A stretch of DNA of 64,000 bases from Colwellia sp. (lineage in GTDB: Bacteria > Pseudomonadota > Gammaproteobacteria > Enterobacterales > Alteromonadaceae): assembly GCA_029938115.1 (NCBI GenBank), contig JAPYOP010000005.1, positions 4,623 through 68,622 of the forward strand. Reading direction: 5' to 3'. The translations under genes and the position numbers were made by a program. Shown one piece after another: positions 24,433-34,147 of this stretch (the stretch's first letter is position 1; the number at the start of each line of letters is the position of its first letter). Below the pieces are notes generated by a model. The model did not search any database, was not told the DNA's origin, and saw only the letters and a program-made list of their open reading frames with translations.

Positions 24433-24543
24433 TTTTTTAATAGGGTAACATAAATAAATTAGAAATCATAATAGTGTCATAGCTTGAATGTATCCTTTAG
24501 CGGATTGACACTATACTCATCAGTTAGGTATACAGGAATCACT

Positions 24544-26184
24544 ATGTCAGATCGTCAAACGTTAGCTAGTTGGAGAAAATTGCAACAATTAGCGCTAGAT
24601 AAAAAATCTCAGCACATGAATACTTTGTTTGCCAATGATAGTGAACGCTTTGAAAAGTTTTCTATTGAGCTACCAAACTTACTACTTGATTACTCAAAAA
24701 ACTTAATTGATTGTGAAACCTTAGACAGTTTATTAGATTTAGCTGAAGAAACAGAAGTTTGTCAATGGCGCACTAAAATGTTTACTGGTGCGAAGATAAA
24801 TAAAACAGAAGACCGCGCTGTATTGCATACGGCGTTGAGACGTCAAAGTGATGAGCCGCTTATATTAGATGGTGAGAATGTGACTGATCACGTACAAAGC
24901 CAATTGGAAAAAATGGAAGGTTTTGTAAATAAAGTGCGTCAAGGTCACTGGTTAGGATATTCAGGTAAGCGTATTACCGACATTGTAAACATTGGCGTCG
25001 GTGGCTCAAACCTTGGTCCGCAAATGGTTACTGAGGCACTGAAGCATTATAGTGACGGTGGTGTTAATGTTCATTATGTTTCTAATGTTGATGGCGCTCA
25101 AATTGTTGAAGTACTGCGCCCATTAGATCCTCAAAAAGTATTGTTTATAGTTTCTAGTAAAACCTTTACAACAACAGAAACAATGACAAACGCTAAAACA
25201 GCAATGAAATGGCTAACAAGCTCCTCGTTTGATGAAAAATCAGTGGCCAAACACTTTGTTGCTGTAACGGCTAATAAAGAAAACGCCATGAGCCTTGGCA
25301 TTGAAGAAGAAAATATATTTGATATGTGGGATTGGGTCGGTGGACGCTTTTCTTTATGGTCAGCAATCGGCTTAGCTATCGCTCTGGATTTAGGTTTCGA
25401 TAAATTTAAAGAGTTACTTGATGGCGCGCATGCAATGGATCAACATTTTATTAATGCCCCGTTGAGAGATAATATGCCTGCAATAATGGCGCTTATTAGT
25501 GTCTGGAATACCACCTTTTTAGGTGCACGTTCACAAGCTATTTTACCTTATGATCAAACTTTGCACATGCTCTCAGCTTATTTACAACAAGCAGAAATGG
25601 AAAGTAATGGTAAATCGGTCACTTGGGATGGTGATGAAGTTGATTATGCTACCGTACCATCAATTTGGGGTGAGCTAGGTATTAATGGGCAACATGCTTT
25701 TTATCAATATTTGCATCAAAGTAATAATGTAGTACCGGCTGACTTTATTGGCTCAGTAGAAAGTGTTACCCCTGTAAAAGGGCACCATGAAACACTCATG
25801 GCAAACTTTTTTGCTCAAACCCAAGCGTTAATGGCAGGTGTTAATGAAGAGCAGGTTAGGGCAGATCTTAAAGCGAAAGGGCGCACTCCTGATTATATTG
25901 ATAAAGTTGCACCACATAAAGTACATAAAGGTAATAGACCAACCAATACTATTTTGCTAAAGCGTATCGATCCTAAAACATTGGGTAGCTTGATTGCCGC
26001 TTATGAGCACAAAATATTTGTTCAAGGTATTATTCTACAAATATGTTCTTTTGATCAATGGGGCGTAGAGCTTGGTAAAGGCTTAGCCGCTGAGATTCAA
26101 GAGGAGCTAGAAAATAATAGTATTTCTGAACAGCATGATTGTTCAACGGCAAGTTTGATGAGATTTTATCAAGAAGCTAAGTAG
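24544..26184 (+). CDS. pgi: Glucose-6-phosphate isomerase
   Basis: DIVNIGVGGSNLGPQMV; GRFSLWSAIGL; ATG 24544 preferred over the upstream TTG. Confidence 0.97.
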   Translation: MSDRQTLASWRKLQQLALDKKSQHMNTLFANDSERFEKFSIELPNLLLDYSKNLIDCETLDSLLDLAEETEVCQWRTKMFTGAKINKTEDRAVLHTALRRQSDEPLILDGENVTDHVQSQLEKMEGFVNKVRQGHWLGYSGKRITDIVNIGVGGSNLGPQMVTEALKHYSDGGVNVHYVSNVDGAQIVEVLRPLDPQKVLFIVSSKTFTTTETMTNAKTAMKWLTSSSFDEKSVAKHFVAVTANKENAMSLGIEEENIFDMWDWVGGRFSLWSAIGLAIALDLGFDKFKELLDGAHAMDQHFINAPLRDNMPAIMALISVWNTTFLGARSQAILPYDQTLHMLSAYLQQAEMESNGKSVTWDGDEVDYATVPSIWGELGINGQHAFYQYLHQSNNVVPADFIGSVESVTPVKGHHETLMANFFAQTQALMAGVNEEQVRADLKAKGRTPDYIDKVAPHKVHKGNRPTNTILLKRIDPKTLGSLIAAYEHKIFVQGIILQICSFDQWGVELGKGLAAEIQEELENNSISEQHDCSTASLMRFYQEAK

Positions 26185-26211
26185 TTTATTTTCAAATAAA
26201 TAACTTCTAAT

Positions 26212-26247
26212 AAAAAAGCAGTCACTAACATTAGTGACTGCTTTTTT
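26212..26247. terminator. Bidirectional terminator between pgi and epd
   Basis: aaaaaagcagtcactaacattagtgactgctttttt. Confidence 0.9.
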
Positions 26248-26289
26248 AGTTTTTATTTTTAAATAAAACAATAGTTATAATAAATACAG

Positions 26290-27336
26290 CTAAGCCATAT
26301 GTTGTGCAGTATCTAACATTCTATTGGCAAAACCCCATTCATTGTCACTCCAAACTAACATTTTTACTAAGCGCTTATGGCTAACACGGGTTTGATTTCC
26401 GTCAACAATACATGAATGCGCATCATGGTTAAAATCAGCTGAAACTAATGGCTCCTCAGTGTAAGCCAATATGCCTTCTAAGCCGTTATCTGTTAACTGT
26501 TTTGATTGGGCATCCTTAATGATTTGATTAATGTCATCAATAGTCACATCTTCATTAACGGTTATGCTTAAATCCATTGCGGTCACATTTAGTGTAGGCA
26601 CACGAACAGCAATAGCTTCGAAGCGACCTTTAAATTTAGGCAAAATTCTTTCTATGCCAATAGCAAGTTTTGTGTCAACTGGAATAATAGACTGACTTGC
26701 TGCCCGAGCACGACGAAGATCAGGATGATAAGCATCAATAACTTGTTGATCATGCATTGAGGAGTGAATAGTGGTTATAGTACCGCTTTCAATACCAAAG
26801 GCATCATCTAACACTTTAATTACAGGCACAATACAATTAGTAGTACATGAACCATTAGAGACGACCTTATCATCGGCATTAAGCTCTAGGTGATTTATGC
26901 CGTAGATAATCGTCGCATCAATATCGTGGGTGCAAGGATGGGAGAACAGAACTTTTTTAGCGCCTTGTTTAATATGAGCCAAACCATCAGCTTGGCTACC
27001 AAACATGCCAGTACAGTCAAGCACAATGTCTACGTTATGTGTTTGCCAAGGCAGTTGTTCTATAGTTTCATAATGATACAAAGCTATTTCATCTTGACCT
27101 GCACAGTTATTTTTAGAGTTATTATCTGAAATGAATAATTTTTCATCTTCTTGCTCAACGTTGAAAGCAAAACGCCCATGGGTGGTATCGTATTTTAATA
27201 GGTGGGCAATACCTGTTGCAGGCGCGAGATCGTTAATCGCTACAATGTTAAAAAGCTCTGTTTTACCGCTTTCATAAAGTGCTCTTACAATGCTGCGACC
27301 GATACGGCCAAAACCATTTATAGCAATGTTTATCAT
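26290..27336 (-). CDS. epd: Erythrose-4-phosphate dehydrogenase
   Basis: NGSCTTNC active site; [37 protein letters not shown] as in Epd; next to tkt. Confidence 0.9.
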
Positions 27337-27421
27337 ATGTCTGTATGTGCGAATTACTCGCGAAGTTTAGGTGAGTAAGGTGGGCATCTTAATTAGCCCA
27401 CCATTTTATAGTTATGTACGC

Positions 27422-29410
27422 TTAAAGTGCATTAACTGTTTTGATAACATTATCAGCAGTAAAACCAAAATGCTCAAGTAATACGTTACCTGGTGCTGAT
27501 TCACCAAAAGTTGTCATACCGACAACAGCTCCGTTTAAACCAACATATTTAGCCCAAAAATCAACATGCGCAGCTTCAATAGCTACACGGTTGGTAACAC
27601 TGGCAGGTAATACAGATTCTTTATAGTCACTTGTTTGTGCATCAAAAATATTAGTTGATGGCATGGAAACAACGCGAATTTTTTTACCTTGTTCAGTTAA
27701 TGCTTTGGCTGAATCCATTGCTAAACCAACTTCAGAGCCTGTAGCAATTAATATTACTTCTGGAGTACCATCGCAATCTTGTAAAATGTAACCACCCTTG
27801 GCAATATCAGATACTTGTGCTTGGCTACGTGACATTGCGGGTAAACCTTGACGCGAGAAAATCAACGCAGAAGGTGCTTTTTGGTTTTGTACTGCCGCTT
27901 TCCAAGCGACGGCTGATTCAGTTGCATCACATGGGCGCCAAGTTGTTAAGTTTGGTGTGGTGCGTAAACTCGTTAGTTGCTCTATTGGCTGATGAGTTGG
28001 ACCATCTTCACCCTGACCAATTGAGTCATGGGTGTATACAAAAATATTTTGAATACCCATCAATGCAGACATTCGTACGGCATTACGCGCATATTCCATG
28101 AACATCATAAACGTTGCACCATAATTGATGAAACCGCCATGAAGTGATACACCATTCATGATACCGCTCATACCAAATTCTCGTACACCGTAAAAAATGT
28201 AGTTACCAGCCGCATCGGTTTGAATGCCTTTTGAGCCTGACCAAAGTGTTAAGTTTGAGCCTGCTAAATCGGCAGAGCCACCTAACATTTCAGGTAATAC
28301 TGGACCAAAAGCTTCAATGGCATTTTGTGATGCTTTACGAGAGGCTATGTTATCGCCTTTTTCATGACATTCTTGGATAAAAGCATTGGCTGTAGCTTCG
28401 AAGTCGCTTGGTAAGTCACCTTTAATAACACGACGTTCATATTCACTAGCAAGCGCTGGATGTGCGGCTTGGTATGCGCTAAATTTTTCATTCCAGCTAA
28501 CTTGGTTCGCAGCGCCTTTTTCGTTTTGATCCCATTGTCCATAAACATCAGCAGGAATTTCAAAAGCAGGATGTTCCCAGTTTAACGCTTTACGGGTTGC
28601 TGCTATTTCGTCATCACCTAATGGTGCGCCATGGCAGTTATGCGTACCTTGTTTGTTTGGTGAACCGAAACCTATGATTGTTTTACAACAAATCATTGAT
28701 GGTTTGTCGGTAACTGACTTAGCTTCAACAATAGCTGCAGCAATTGCAGCGCTATCATGTCCGTCAACACTAATTACATGCCAGCCATAAGCTTCAAAAC
28801 GGGCAGGGGTATTATCGGTAAACCAGCCTTCAACATGACCGTCGATAGAAATGCCATTATCATCCCAAAAAGAAATTAATTTCCCCAAACCTAACGTGCC
28901 GGCAAGCGAGCTAACTTCGTGAGAAATACCTTCCATTAAACAACCATCGCCTAAGAAACAGTATGTGTAATGATCCACAATGTCATGGCCTTCACGGTTA
29001 AACTGTGCAGCTAAGGTTTTTTCAGCAATAGCCATACCGACCGCATTTGAAAGACCAGCGCCTAATGGGCCTGTTGTTGTTTCAACACCGGGTGTATAAC
29101 CATATTCAGGATGGCCTGGCGTTTTAGAGTGTAATTGACGGAAGTTTTTTAAGTCATCAATAGACAAATCATAACCAGTTAAATGCAATAGCGAGTAAAT
29201 TAGCATTGAGCCATGGCCGTTAGAAAGTATAAATCGATCACGATCAGCCCAATTAGGATCACTTGGGTTGTGTTTTAAGAAATCACGCCATAAAACTTCG
29301 GCGATATCCGCCATACCCATAGGGGCACCAGGGTGTCCTGATTTTGCTTTTTGAACGGCATCCATGCTTAACACACGAATGGCATTGGCTAGTTCTTGAC
29401 GCGACGACAT
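27422..29410 (-). CDS. tktA: Transketolase
   Basis: [35 protein letters not shown]; 662 aa. Confidence 0.97.
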
Positions 29411-29669
29411 ATTGGCTCCAGATCTACTTTAAATTAAAAGATATTTGTACTTAAATAAATTGCGCGTATTTTCCACTACCACAACGCATAGCGCAAATTA
29501 AATCGCACTATTTTTTATATTTTTTATTAGAGATATGCCAAGAAGTTGAATATCACTATGAAAACAAACTATTGATAGCCCAACTACTGGGATAAGTTTG
29601 AGTAAGAACAAAAAATAGTGCTATATTCACTACAGTAAAATCACTAATTAATTGATTAATTATAAAATA

Positions 29670-31973
29670 ATGCAAAATACTCCTCAGCGCTTTTTCTTAG
29701 CAATTTTTATTTATCTCAGTGTGTGTGCATACACATTTTTTTTCATCGCACCATATTCTTTTACCAGCTTTGTTGGACCTGCGGCAGGTATAACAACTGC
29801 TTTGGTGATCTTTTTAGGTGTTAACATATTATTAGCCACTGCTGTAGCAACCGTGCTCTTTTGTTTGTTCTTATATTTCTGGTTAGAATTACCAATCGAA
29901 TTATCTATGATTATTATCACTTTGTTGGCGCTTACACTGCAGGGTTTTTGGGCTAAACAGCTAATTCTTTCTGAAGTTAATAAGCAGAATTGGCTTAAAT
30001 CTAGAAGGGATTTATTTTCCTTTTTATTGAAAATAGGCCCTTTAATTAGTCTTGTTTCAGCTTTTACAGTTGTTATTCTTACGGTGATAGATAATCAGTC
30101 ACTGGGTGAAAATTTACTTTTTACTTTTGCTAACTGTTGGTCGAATAGTATTTTGTTTTCTATATTCTTTACTCCTATTTTTTTACTTTATCAAGGTAGG
30201 CACCAACTAAGTTCATCTAAACGGTTTTTTATTACCCTAGCATCATTATTAGCGATTGTTACTATTGGTTTATTGTTTAACATTTCTCAAAATGTTCAAC
30301 AACACCAACGACAAGACACATTCAATAACGTTCAGCGAGAAGTATTACAGAGTATTAAGCAAGAAATAGCTTTAACTATAGAACAAGTAAATAGTTTATC
30401 TGCATTTTTCAAAGCGAGTGAACAAGTAAATAAAAATGAGTTTGACTTGTTTTTGCAGCATGTTTTTCAAAATAAATCGAGTGTAAGAGTATTCGAATGG
30501 GCTCCTGTCGTTAATCATGAAAATAGAATTGAGTTTGAAAGATATTTCGGCAATATTAATGAGAAAACTTTAGAGGGTAAATTGAAAAATGCGACAAAAA
30601 GAAGTCGTTATGCTCCGATTCAGTATATTTATCCGTCGTTAAATAATGGCCAAGTTTTAGGTTTTAATGTGTTTAATAACACTAAAACGACTATTGATAT
30701 GGATAAAGTCATTAGCCATGGTGATGTTGTTGCAAGTGCTCCAGTTAGTTTGATTCAAGATGAACATGCTAATTTGGCAATACTCTTTGTCTCAGCTGTT
30801 TTTTCTGAAAAGGATGTTCAAGAACAAAACAGGCAAGATCATTTATTAGGTTTTGTTATTGCTGTAGTTCAGTTTGAACGTTTTTTTAAGAAAATTTCAC
30901 CTTTAAAATCGGATGAGATCACTTTATTTATTGAAGACATAACCATGCAAGAGCCTTATATATTATTTGGTAAGCAACTAAATGAAAGTTATCGTCATGT
31001 TGAAATGACGGATATAAATGTGGGCTCAAGAATATGGCGTATTAGCTTAGGTGAAAATACTCCTTGGCAAATGCAAGAGAAAAACTGGCAAGTTTGGGGA
31101 ATGTTATTTGGGGCAACATTAGGTGGCATTTTATTTCAAGTTCTTATATTAATGATGGCGGTGTATTCGAATGAGTTAAGTGATCAAGTTACTCAAAAAA
31201 CTAGAGAATTAATTTTAGCCAAGGAGAAATCAGAGCACGAAAACACCGCTAAAACAGGTTTTTTACATACCCTTACGAATGAGTTAAAAACACCACTAGA
31301 AGCTCTAATTCACTTTACTGCTCAGTTAAATAAAATTGAACCACATGAACAAAAAAGTATTGTTCAAAACATGGAGTTAACACAGGATAATATGCAAAAG
31401 CTACTTAATATGGTTGAAGATTTATCTAAACTTGAGTTAGGAGAGTTAACCGTAAATAGTGAGACACTGGATTTTTATGGATTTATAGAGCGAGTAGACG
31501 CTATGTTAAAAGCAAGTGAATCAAATACTGATAAAAATATAGCCTTCTTAATTGCCCCTAATGTGCCGCATTTTATAAACAGTGATGAACTTAAAATCCA
31601 ACAGCTTTTGATCGCTTTTTGTGGTGGTGTTCATCAATTATTTGCTGTAAATAATATGAAGTTATCAATAAAAGCTCACCATCATCAAAATAGTATCGCC
31701 ACACTATTATTTGTTTTCACTAGCCATGATATTGAAACGAGTGATTTGACTGAAAAGTTTCAACATTTTATTGCAAAAGATGTGGCATCATATAGTACAG
31801 AAATGGCTATAGCTAAAGAGGTTTGTCAATTAATGGGAGGCGATGCTAATTTGGCTATTTCAGCTTCAGGGGAAAGAATATTGACTGTTTCTCTAAAAGT
31901 GAGCGTCACTTCAAGTAAACAACAGCAAACCTATCAAGCAGAAATGTTTGATGAAAACTTAAATAAAAGTTAA
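29670..31973 (+). CDS. MASE1/CHASE-domain sensor with degenerate histidine-kinase module
   Basis: Multi-TM N-terminus, CHASE-like periplasmic domain, TM, then FLHTLTNELKTPLEAL dimerisation region. Confidence 0.75.
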   Translation: MQNTPQRFFLAIFIYLSVCAYTFFFIAPYSFTSFVGPAAGITTALVIFLGVNILLATAVATVLFCLFLYFWLELPIELSMIIITLLALTLQGFWAKQLILSEVNKQNWLKSRRDLFSFLLKIGPLISLVSAFTVVILTVIDNQSLGENLLFTFANCWSNSILFSIFFTPIFLLYQGRHQLSSSKRFFITLASLLAIVTIGLLFNISQNVQQHQRQDTFNNVQREVLQSIKQEIALTIEQVNSLSAFFKASEQVNKNEFDLFLQHVFQNKSSVRVFEWAPVVNHENRIEFERYFGNINEKTLEGKLKNATKRSRYAPIQYIYPSLNNGQVLGFNVFNNTKTTIDMDKVISHGDVVASAPVSLIQDEHANLAILFVSAVFSEKDVQEQNRQDHLLGFVIAVVQFERFFKKISPLKSDEITLFIEDITMQEPYILFGKQLNESYRHVEMTDINVGSRIWRISLGENTPWQMQEKNWQVWGMLFGATLGGILFQVLILMMAVYSNELSDQVTQKTRELILAKEKSEHENTAKTGFLHTLTNELKTPLEALIHFTAQLNKIEPHEQKSIVQNMELTQDNMQKLLNMVEDLSKLELGELTVNSETLDFYGFIERVDAMLKASESNTDKNIAFLIAPNVPHFINSDELKIQQLLIAFCGGVHQLFAVNNMKLSIKAHHHQNSIATLLFVFTSHDIETSDLTEKFQHFIAKDVASYSTEMAIAKEVCQLMGGDANLAISASGERILTVSLKVSVTSSKQQQTYQAEMFDENLNKS

Positions 31974-32532: not shown

Positions 32533-32595
32533 TATTGCTAAGGAGAAAACTTGGCATTACAATGTATTAATAATTTACCTTTTCAGATTGTTATT

Positions 32596-32955
32596 ATGTC
32601 TTCAGATTTCAGCTCAGCAAATAAAATGGGTTCAAGTGCCAACTATAAACAAAAAGAGCAGGGATATCGTGATCGTGCGTTAAAGTTATTCCCGTGGGTT
32701 TGTGGTCGCTGTGCCCGTGAATTTGTTTATTCAAATATTAAAGAATTGACAGTTCACCATATGGATCATGATCATACAAATAATCCTAATGATGGCAGTA
32801 ACTGGGAGTTACTCTGTATTTATTGTCATGATAACGAACACGCTAAATATACTGATCATGCGAACTATCAAACAGAAGTAAAAGCCGGTGATACCAATCA
32901 AGATAGCGCAACTTATAATCCTTTTGCCGATCTCAAGTCACTGTTGAAAAAGTAA
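32596..32955 (+). CDS. yajD: HNH endonuclease family protein, YajD-like
   Basis: CGRCAREF...LTVHHMDHDHTNNPNDGSNWELLCIYCHDNEH. Confidence 0.85.
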   Translation: MSSDFSSANKMGSSANYKQKEQGYRDRALKLFPWVCGRCAREFVYSNIKELTVHHMDHDHTNNPNDGSNWELLCIYCHDNEHAKYTDHANYQTEVKAGDTNQDSATYNPFADLKSLLKK

Positions 32956-33013
32956 CTGTTTGTATAAAAAGCGAATCAATCAAAGTTATCAAATGTTAAG
33001 GGGGACTCTCTAT

Positions 33014-34147
33014 ATGAAAAAAGCACTACTGCTAACTATTTTCATTATGTTTTCAGCAAAGTCATATGCACTTAATGTTATTTATCTAAGCCAAACAATT
33101 AATGTAACACCCTACTGGCACAAGGTTTATTCTATAACAGAAATGGCAGCTAAAAGCTTAGGTATAAATTTAACAATAACCGAGGGACTGGGCCATAGAA
33201 TTTATCAAATGGACCTTATCATTGATCTTAGTAAAATGGAAAAAAAGCCGGATTTAATCATTTTTCATGCATATCCGTTAACTTCCCTAAGAACTTTTAC
33301 TGTATTAGAAGACGCCAAAATTCCTTTTGTAACTATTTCAGATTTTGAAAATAACACGACACTCCCTATTGATAGGCAAGTTGATAAGCCCCAAGTAAAA
33401 TTTAAATTCTGGCTGGCTGAGCATGCTATTGATGATAACCATGGCGCTTATTTGTTAGCTAAAAACCTTATTAGACAAGCAGAAGAAAAGCTCATTGATC
33501 AAAATAATTTAGTTAATAAACCTAAACTTAAAATGTTAGCACTAAGTGGAGACTTTATTCATGAGTCAGTTGAACGCAGTAAAGGTGTTTTAAAAAGTGC
33601 GAAACAAAATGATAACGTAATTTTAGTGCAAGATATTAATGCTAATTGGGCGTTTGAGAATGCTAAGAATAAGTTTAAGGCTTTGTATTATAGGCATGAA
33701 GGTATTGATGTAGTATGGGCTAGCTCAGATCTTATGGCTTTAGGTGTATTAAAGGGAGCTACAGAGTTAGGTTTAACTCCAAACAAAGATATATTTATCG
33801 GTGGTTTTGACTGGGATAAAGAGGCCATAAAAAATATAGAACAGCAAAAGCTTAGTGCTTCAGCAGGAGGACAGTTTTATAATATTGCTTGGTTACTAGT
33901 AAGGGTATACGATCATTTTAATAACCAGTCTTCATTTTCTAAAAGTGCAGCTAAAGTTGCTACGGATTATACGATAATCGATCAAAATAACTTAGCTAAG
34001 TATGAAAAATTAATCGATGTAGATAAATTAGCTGAAATTGATTTTAGCTGTTTTAGCAAAGCTTATACCAAAGAATCCTCTTATGATTTCTCATTAGATA
34101 AATTGTTGAAGCAGGTAGAACAACCGAATCAGAAAAAGTGCATATAG
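33014..34147 (+). CDS. Periplasmic sugar-binding-protein-like protein, no neighbouring ABC transporter
   Basis: Signal peptide MKKALLLTIFIMFSAKSYA; periplasmic-binding fold pattern (VVWASSDLMALGVLKGATELGL...IFIGGFDWD). Confidence 0.75.
   Translation: MKKALLLTIFIMFSAKSYALNVIYLSQTINVTPYWHKVYSITEMAAKSLGINLTITEGLGHRIYQMDLIIDLSKMEKKPDLIIFHAYPLTSLRTFTVLEDAKIPFVTISDFENNTTLPIDRQVDKPQVKFKFWLAEHAIDDNHGAYLLAKNLIRQAEEKLIDQNNLVNKPKLKMLALSGDFIHESVERSKGVLKSAKQNDNVILVQDINANWAFENAKNKFKALYYRHEGIDVVWASSDLMALGVLKGATELGLTPNKDIFIGGFDWDKEAIKNIEQQKLSASAGGQFYNIAWLLVRVYDHFNNQSSFSKSAAKVATDYTIIDQNNLAKYEKLIDVDKLAEIDFSCFSKAYTKESSYDFSLDKLLKQVEQPNQKKCI

Follow-up and report, generated by a model that had tools for sequence, protein, structure and literature searches.

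A CHASE-domain receptor with a pseudo-histidine kinase core, kept beside tktA in Colwellia and related genera

Pseudo-histidine kinases are a known kind of protein. DivL binds DivK~P though it is without kinase or phosphatase activity, and it has a mostly fixed tyrosine at the acceptor position and retains its N, G1, F, and G2 motifs (PMC4211667); RetS inhibits GacS through heterodimerization (PMC12189002); and in Corynebacterium a dead ChrS variant changes signaling via another kinase (PMC9491836).

Here we describe a gene within a 64,000-nucleotide stretch of Colwellia sp. DNA (the window), on contig 186 of a 5.2-Mb genome of 278 contigs. We read its product as a long-conserved, catalytically dead sensor kinase of hybrid-kinase origin, in which a signal perceived by a CHASE domain is passed to a contact-based output of the dimerization (DHp) and catalytic (CA) domains, and we put the probability of this reading at roughly 0.7.

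Gene, protein layout, and locus

The gene and the domains of its product are arranged as follows.

29670-31973, forward strand: pseudo-histidine kinase gene, 767 amino acids from the ATG at 29670
29673-30296, forward strand: membrane region, MASE1-like, with seven or eight predicted helices (residues 8-215; AlphaFold2 model)
30423-30956, forward strand: CHASE sensor domain (residues 258-435; Pfam PF03924, 102 bits; AHK4-like model)
31251-31439, forward strand: DHp (HisKA) domain (residues 534-596; Pfam PF00512; two long helices in the model)
31461-31907, forward strand: degenerate CA (GHKL-type) domain, fold kept and ATP-binding motifs lost (residues 604-752; model and alignment; no HATPase_c match)

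An alternative upstream start, the TTG at 29652, gives an open reading frame of 773 amino acids (29652-31973, forward strand), and all residue numbers used here are counted from it. The N-termini of the orthologues, which begin at the ATG, suggest that 29670 is the start used. An initial annotation, made by a model from the letters of the window, had called the protein a CHASE sensor kinase, and the Pfam CHASE score agrees with the first part of that name; Pfam, the structural model, and the match to AHK4 place the CHASE domain between membrane helices, as in CHASE-domain receptors, and it is probably extracytoplasmic, in the periplasm. The Pfam MASE1 family is matched by four of 24 orthologues (best 1.4e-5), the window protein itself having no match. 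The profile searches that the annotation had proposed gave a HisKA score over the cut-off (29.4 against 26.9 bits), a family that each of the 24 aligned members matches, and no match to HATPase_c, either in the window protein or among the families matched by those 24.

The full-length AlphaFold2 model, for which 33 sequences were the input, has a mean pLDDT of 79 and contains the membrane helices, the CHASE domain, a DHp pair of long helices, and a sandwich-type CA domain; the DHp-CA piece modeled alone reached a pLDDT of 85. Foldseek aligned the CHASE model with AHK4 (3t4k) at a TM score of 0.77 by target length and matched the kinase core of the full model to RetS and GacS. The two-domain piece alone matched HK853, GacS, RetS, and DivL, with TM scores mostly of 0.5-0.7, at 15-20% identity and an rmsd of about 5-8 Å. 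Taken from predicted models, these matches show that the kinase-core fold class is kept; they do not establish function.

Upstream of the gene lie two neighbors and the region that separates them from it.

26290-27336, reverse strand: epd/GAPDH-like gene, second in the conserved neighboring block
27422-29410, reverse strand: tktA (transketolase), the divergent neighbor kept across the family
29411-29669, no strand: divergent intergenic region of 259 bp between tktA and the pseudokinase gene

At a threshold of E <= 1e-30, orthologues were found in 32 of the 39 genomes of the genus, the one in G035 being an incomplete copy at the end of its contig. When an alignment was used as query across the family (a single-protein scan of contigs had given no matches), 27 of 299 genomes, from 10 of the 52 genera sampled, had matches, and in two of the 27 these were only canonical kinases (L097 and L098); the named records with matches are Colwellia, Litorilituus, Pseudocolwellia, and an uncultured Alteromonadaceae bacterium. 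With few exceptions the copies are complete and their reading frame is open. In one MAG, Colwellia sp. 39_35_sub15_T18 (L017/L046), the frame is interrupted between the DHp and CA domains, which is either a sequencing error or real decay.

At nearly every locus with a visible neighbor the gene is divergent from tktA, which is followed by epd and mostly by pgk and fba; at L064 and L089 tktA is missing and epd adjoins the pseudokinase gene. In the window (24484-29410) and its nearest relatives (L039-L043 and L046), compared with L045-L072, tktA and epd are followed by other genes in place of the usual pgk-fba continuation, so the block has been split within the window's sub-lineage. On the other side of the gene, the window encodes HNH-endonuclease-like and periplasmic sugar-binding-like (Peripla_BP_4) proteins (32551-34147), which are not kept beside orthologues. 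A scan for promoters and terminators gave a site count not above that of shuffled sequences. In 40 regions upstream of tktA, from genomes of the family that lack the pseudokinase, there was no intact kinase at the same place; these genomes hold unrelated genes or contig ends there, a few of the regions being cut by contig ends and one (L102) being too short to judge. Among close relatives lacking the gene, four regions beside tktA contain no gene remnants and a fifth is cut by a contig end; absent there with no trace, the pseudokinase is dispensable in some relatives.

The acceptor position and the nucleotide-binding motifs

Three short elements within the DHp and CA domains distinguish the protein.

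31278-31280, forward strand: codon 543, asparagine at the phospho-acceptor histidine position, in the H-box FLHTLTNELKTPL that starts at residue 537
31584-31643, forward strand: former N-box DELKIQQLLIAFCGGVHQLF, residues 645-664, with both asparagines lost (42-sequence alignment)
31671-31685, forward strand: K-x-H-x-H motif specific to the family (K674, H676, H678), on the strand that follows the N-box helix (conservation among 17 distinct sequences)

A functional HisKA kinase carries a phospho-acceptor histidine in its H-box and an ATP-binding CA domain with N-box, DxGxG, and GTGLG motifs; the window protein has Asn543 and none of the three motifs. The replacement of the histidine by asparagine had been noticed in the initial annotation, which asked whether it is conserved, and comparison of 42 distinct orthologous sequences divides the answer: a residue other than histidine is present in 41, and asparagine specifically in only five. 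The residues found are Lys (15), Asn (5), Asp (4), Thr (4), Ser (3), Arg, Gln, Leu, and Val (two each), and Glu, Gly, and His (one each), and with these 12 types position 543 has the highest entropy of the 70 DHp columns. Its neighbors are held, Glu544 in 41 and Pro548 in all 42, and the active CHASE hybrid kinase paralogues of the same bacterial family have histidine in this column without exception (11/11). Judged from the alignment, asparagine itself is not the selected substitute, position 543 is free to vary, and the non-histidine state is old and shared across the family.

Two observations had been named that would speak against a pseudokinase, another acceptor histidine nearby and orthologues with an intact H-box, and neither was found. 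His539, the histidine of the FLH sequence, was considered as an alternative acceptor and rejected, the residue being histidine in only 5/42 and usually glutamine. At position 543 the single histidine belongs to L093 (G040:C7), the sole family member with an acceptor histidine, which is itself without N-box and glycine motifs and branches early in the tree with weak branch support; its histidine may have been retained from an ancestor or regained by chance, and the protein may record the sequence in which motifs were lost.

The N-box had also been described as lacking its usual asparagines, and indeed both are absent from residues 645-664; across the family the first is retained in 1/42 and the second in 10/42. 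The DxGxG and GTGLG motifs, which the annotation had not listed, are likewise absent from the window protein, and of their residues the family retains the aspartate in two sequences of 42, the first glycine in two, and the GTGLG glycines in none to three. The lid stretch of the window protein is 27 residues long, against 35 in active paralogues. The reported C-terminal resemblance to the end of a HATPase is real (GGD...SG...V), with Gly730 present in 42/42.

The CA domain also has residues that are specific to the family. In the reduced distinct set H676 is present in 17/17, and H678 and K674 in 16/17 each; both histidines are absent from the two canonical kinases aligned with this set, and the motif is invariant or nearly so in alignments A2 and A4. 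L093 has tyrosine for the second histidine. Two other family-specific residues, D607 and G740, occur in all and in nearly all of the 17 distinct sequences, respectively. In the model K674, H676, and H678 occupy alternate positions of one strand and therefore probably share one face, and the motif may hint at a role for the CA domain other than as a scaffold.

Selection, descent, and alternative readings

Ratios of dN/dS (Nei-Gojobori) were tabulated for 14 pairs, and over the 10 pairs with an overall dS of at least 0.5 they range from 0.004 to 0.09 for DHp, 0.06 to 0.18 for CA, 0.11 to 0.17 for CHASE, and 0.09 to 0.14 for the whole protein, the pairs not being independent and the short domains being noisy. 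With values this far below 1, the coding sequences indicate that DHp and CA are both under purifying selection. A tree built by a quick method separates 22 family members from nine active MASE1-CHASE kinases with an SH-aLRT of 100. Several early-branching members have a worn C-terminal receiver, which in L058 and L065 scores 24 bits against a Response_reg cut-off of 30.2, and further early-branching C-termini align with this region; the window's own branch is without a receiver domain. The tree split together with the worn receivers points to an ancestor that was probably a CHASE hybrid kinase, the receiver later having been lost too in the main Colwellia lineage. Receiver-like C-termini with varied wear occur in L058, L063, L064, L065, L067, L091, L094, L095, and L096; that of L058 still has the acidic pair, the phospho-Asp position, and the K-P near its end, some of which are lost in others.

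The protein thus has what a pseudo-histidine kinase should have, a core fold that is kept, an acceptor replaced across orthologues, and a gene under selection, and with the non-histidine state old and shared, the suggestion of the initial annotation that it is a pseudokinase receptor signaling by protein interaction is also our best reading. Its domains suggest that the membrane region and periplasmic CHASE domain sense a signal, which would pass via a transmembrane helix into the two-helix DHp bundle. The bundle should still fold and probably dimerizes, and from its motifs it would be unable to accept phosphate; the CA domain appears to keep its fold and, by its motifs, would be unable to bind ATP in the usual way. 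Because neither usual ATP binding nor phosphate acceptance is expected from the motifs, output by contact is most likely, presumably a DHp/CA conformational change that alters another signaling protein, which could be an active kinase (as RetS acts on GacS) or a response regulator (as DivL with DivK). Against this reading we count the dispensability of the gene in some relatives, the one early-branching member with a histidine, and the K-x-H-x-H motif.

The window's genome encodes a BarA/GacS orthologue scoring over the curated cut-off, and BarA is the best curated-model match of the pseudokinase's kinase region, far below the BarA cut-off; on these matches BarA/GacS is the first candidate for a partner, and only a candidate. 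Partners were also sought among the CHASE proteins of the same genome and rejected, there being just one other, the CHASE-GGDEF protein L139 (G000:C255:5368-5931); the 278-contig assembly yielded no intact CHASE kinase. At the Pseudocolwellia-type loci L063 (8898-13301) and L067 (8956-13403), the pseudokinase gene is followed on the opposite strand by genes for a PAS hybrid kinase that is intact, for an Hpt protein, and for a response regulator with a C-terminal receiver, and L064 shows relatives of the Hpt and response-regulator pair. This set is a possible lineage-specific partner in Pseudocolwellia. As a general partner it was rejected, since at the threshold applied the window's genome has no counterpart of the regulator, and within the genus its matches are weak and confined to part of the genomes.

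Several other readings of these observations have been weighed. Simple decay, either to a pseudogene or as a kinase under relaxed selection, would be consistent with the missing catalytic motifs, the frame break in one MAG, and the several close relatives without the gene; set against nearly all copies being open and full length, DHp and CA dN/dS values far below 1, a loss common to several genera at one locus, and the conservation of the new residues, it is highly improbable. The near-invariance of H676 and H678 raises the thought that one of them takes phosphate from a receiver without ATP, as ChpT and Spo0B do. Known phosphotransferases, however, carry the acceptor histidine on a DHp helix, whereas the model has these two on a CA strand, and the DHp helix has no conserved histidine to offer (position 543 in 1/42, in L093 alone, and position 539 in 5/42), which leaves such a role very unlikely. 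In HisKA phosphatases an E-x-x-T/N motif has a role, and kinases with a substituted histidine can have phosphatase activity. The window protein has the E-x-x-T form (Glu544 and Thr547), and its closest relatives keep it as ELKT or ELQT, in line with a receptor that only dephosphorylates a response regulator and has no kinase activity; Thr547, though, is found in just 13/42, with Val, Leu, or Met in most of the remaining members, and the nucleotide-binding motifs that usually support phosphatase activity are gone, so that we hold this unlikely.

The remaining alternatives give the CA domain a function of its own. It could be an input module that binds a ligand or metal through K-x-H-x-H and integrates an internal signal with that from CHASE, perhaps tied to the adjacent pentose-phosphate and glycolysis genes. 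The family-specific motif at alternate positions of one strand and the tktA-epd(-pgk-fba) linkage at nearly every locus with a visible neighbor would fit, but linkage to housekeeping genes can last without a functional tie and L093 has tyrosine for the second histidine, and we think this version rather doubtful. A broader form, in which the CA domain has been rebuilt as a module that lost ATP binding and gained, in K-x-H-x-H, a conserved site to bind a ligand, a metal, or a partner, with DHp relaying this and the CHASE signal without phosphate, is conceivable but less likely than not. The dead sensor kinase with a contact-based output remains the reading we prefer.

Comparison with known systems

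DivL (Caulobacter; PDB 4q20) shares with the Colwellia family the DHp-CA fold (4q20_B, TM score of 0.66 by target length), a non-histidine acceptor across orthologues, and, as predicted here, a contact output. It differs in having PAS sensors and kept motifs, whereas the Colwellia family has a CHASE sensor, a hypervariable acceptor position, and lost ATP motifs, and the window protein does not have the Tyr or Ala acceptor, PAS sensors, and intact motifs of the DivL orthologue group. RetS (P. aeruginosa; PDB 6dk7, 6dk8, and 7n0e) is, with GacS, the closest solved DHp-CA relative in sequence, and its fold match is one of the best. It is a kinase-like regulator of another kinase, and for the Colwellia family a GacS-like interaction is suggested by analogy only; the sensor region of RetS also differs from that of the CHASE family. 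The plant receptor AHK4 of Arabidopsis, a cytokinin-receptor hybrid kinase, has the same fold in its CHASE part (3t4k, 3t4j, and 3t4s), from which ligand specificity is not transferable. The nearest intact relatives within the genus, at about 21-25% identity, are active Colwellia MASE1-CHASE hybrid kinases (L141, L142, L144, L146, L147, L151, and L152), which have the same N-terminal sensor architecture but keep the histidine, the N-box, DxGxG, GTGLG, and a receiver domain. No published description of this Colwellia-type pseudokinase family was found in the literature searched, most subscription journals being outside its scope.

Most catalytic motifs are still present in DivL, the best-studied pseudo-histidine kinase of bacteria. 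The family described here offers a natural series, with over forty distinct sequences at one locus, active paralogues within the genus, and early branches with a worn receiver, in which to examine what sensor kinases keep and what they newly build once phosphate chemistry is abandoned. Its members come from marine environmental bacteria, and the cytoplasmic part is small enough for ordinary tests to suffice. What is distinctive relative to the known systems is the combination of a CHASE sensor with a complete loss of nucleotide motifs, a freely varying acceptor position, and a gained K-x-H-x-H.
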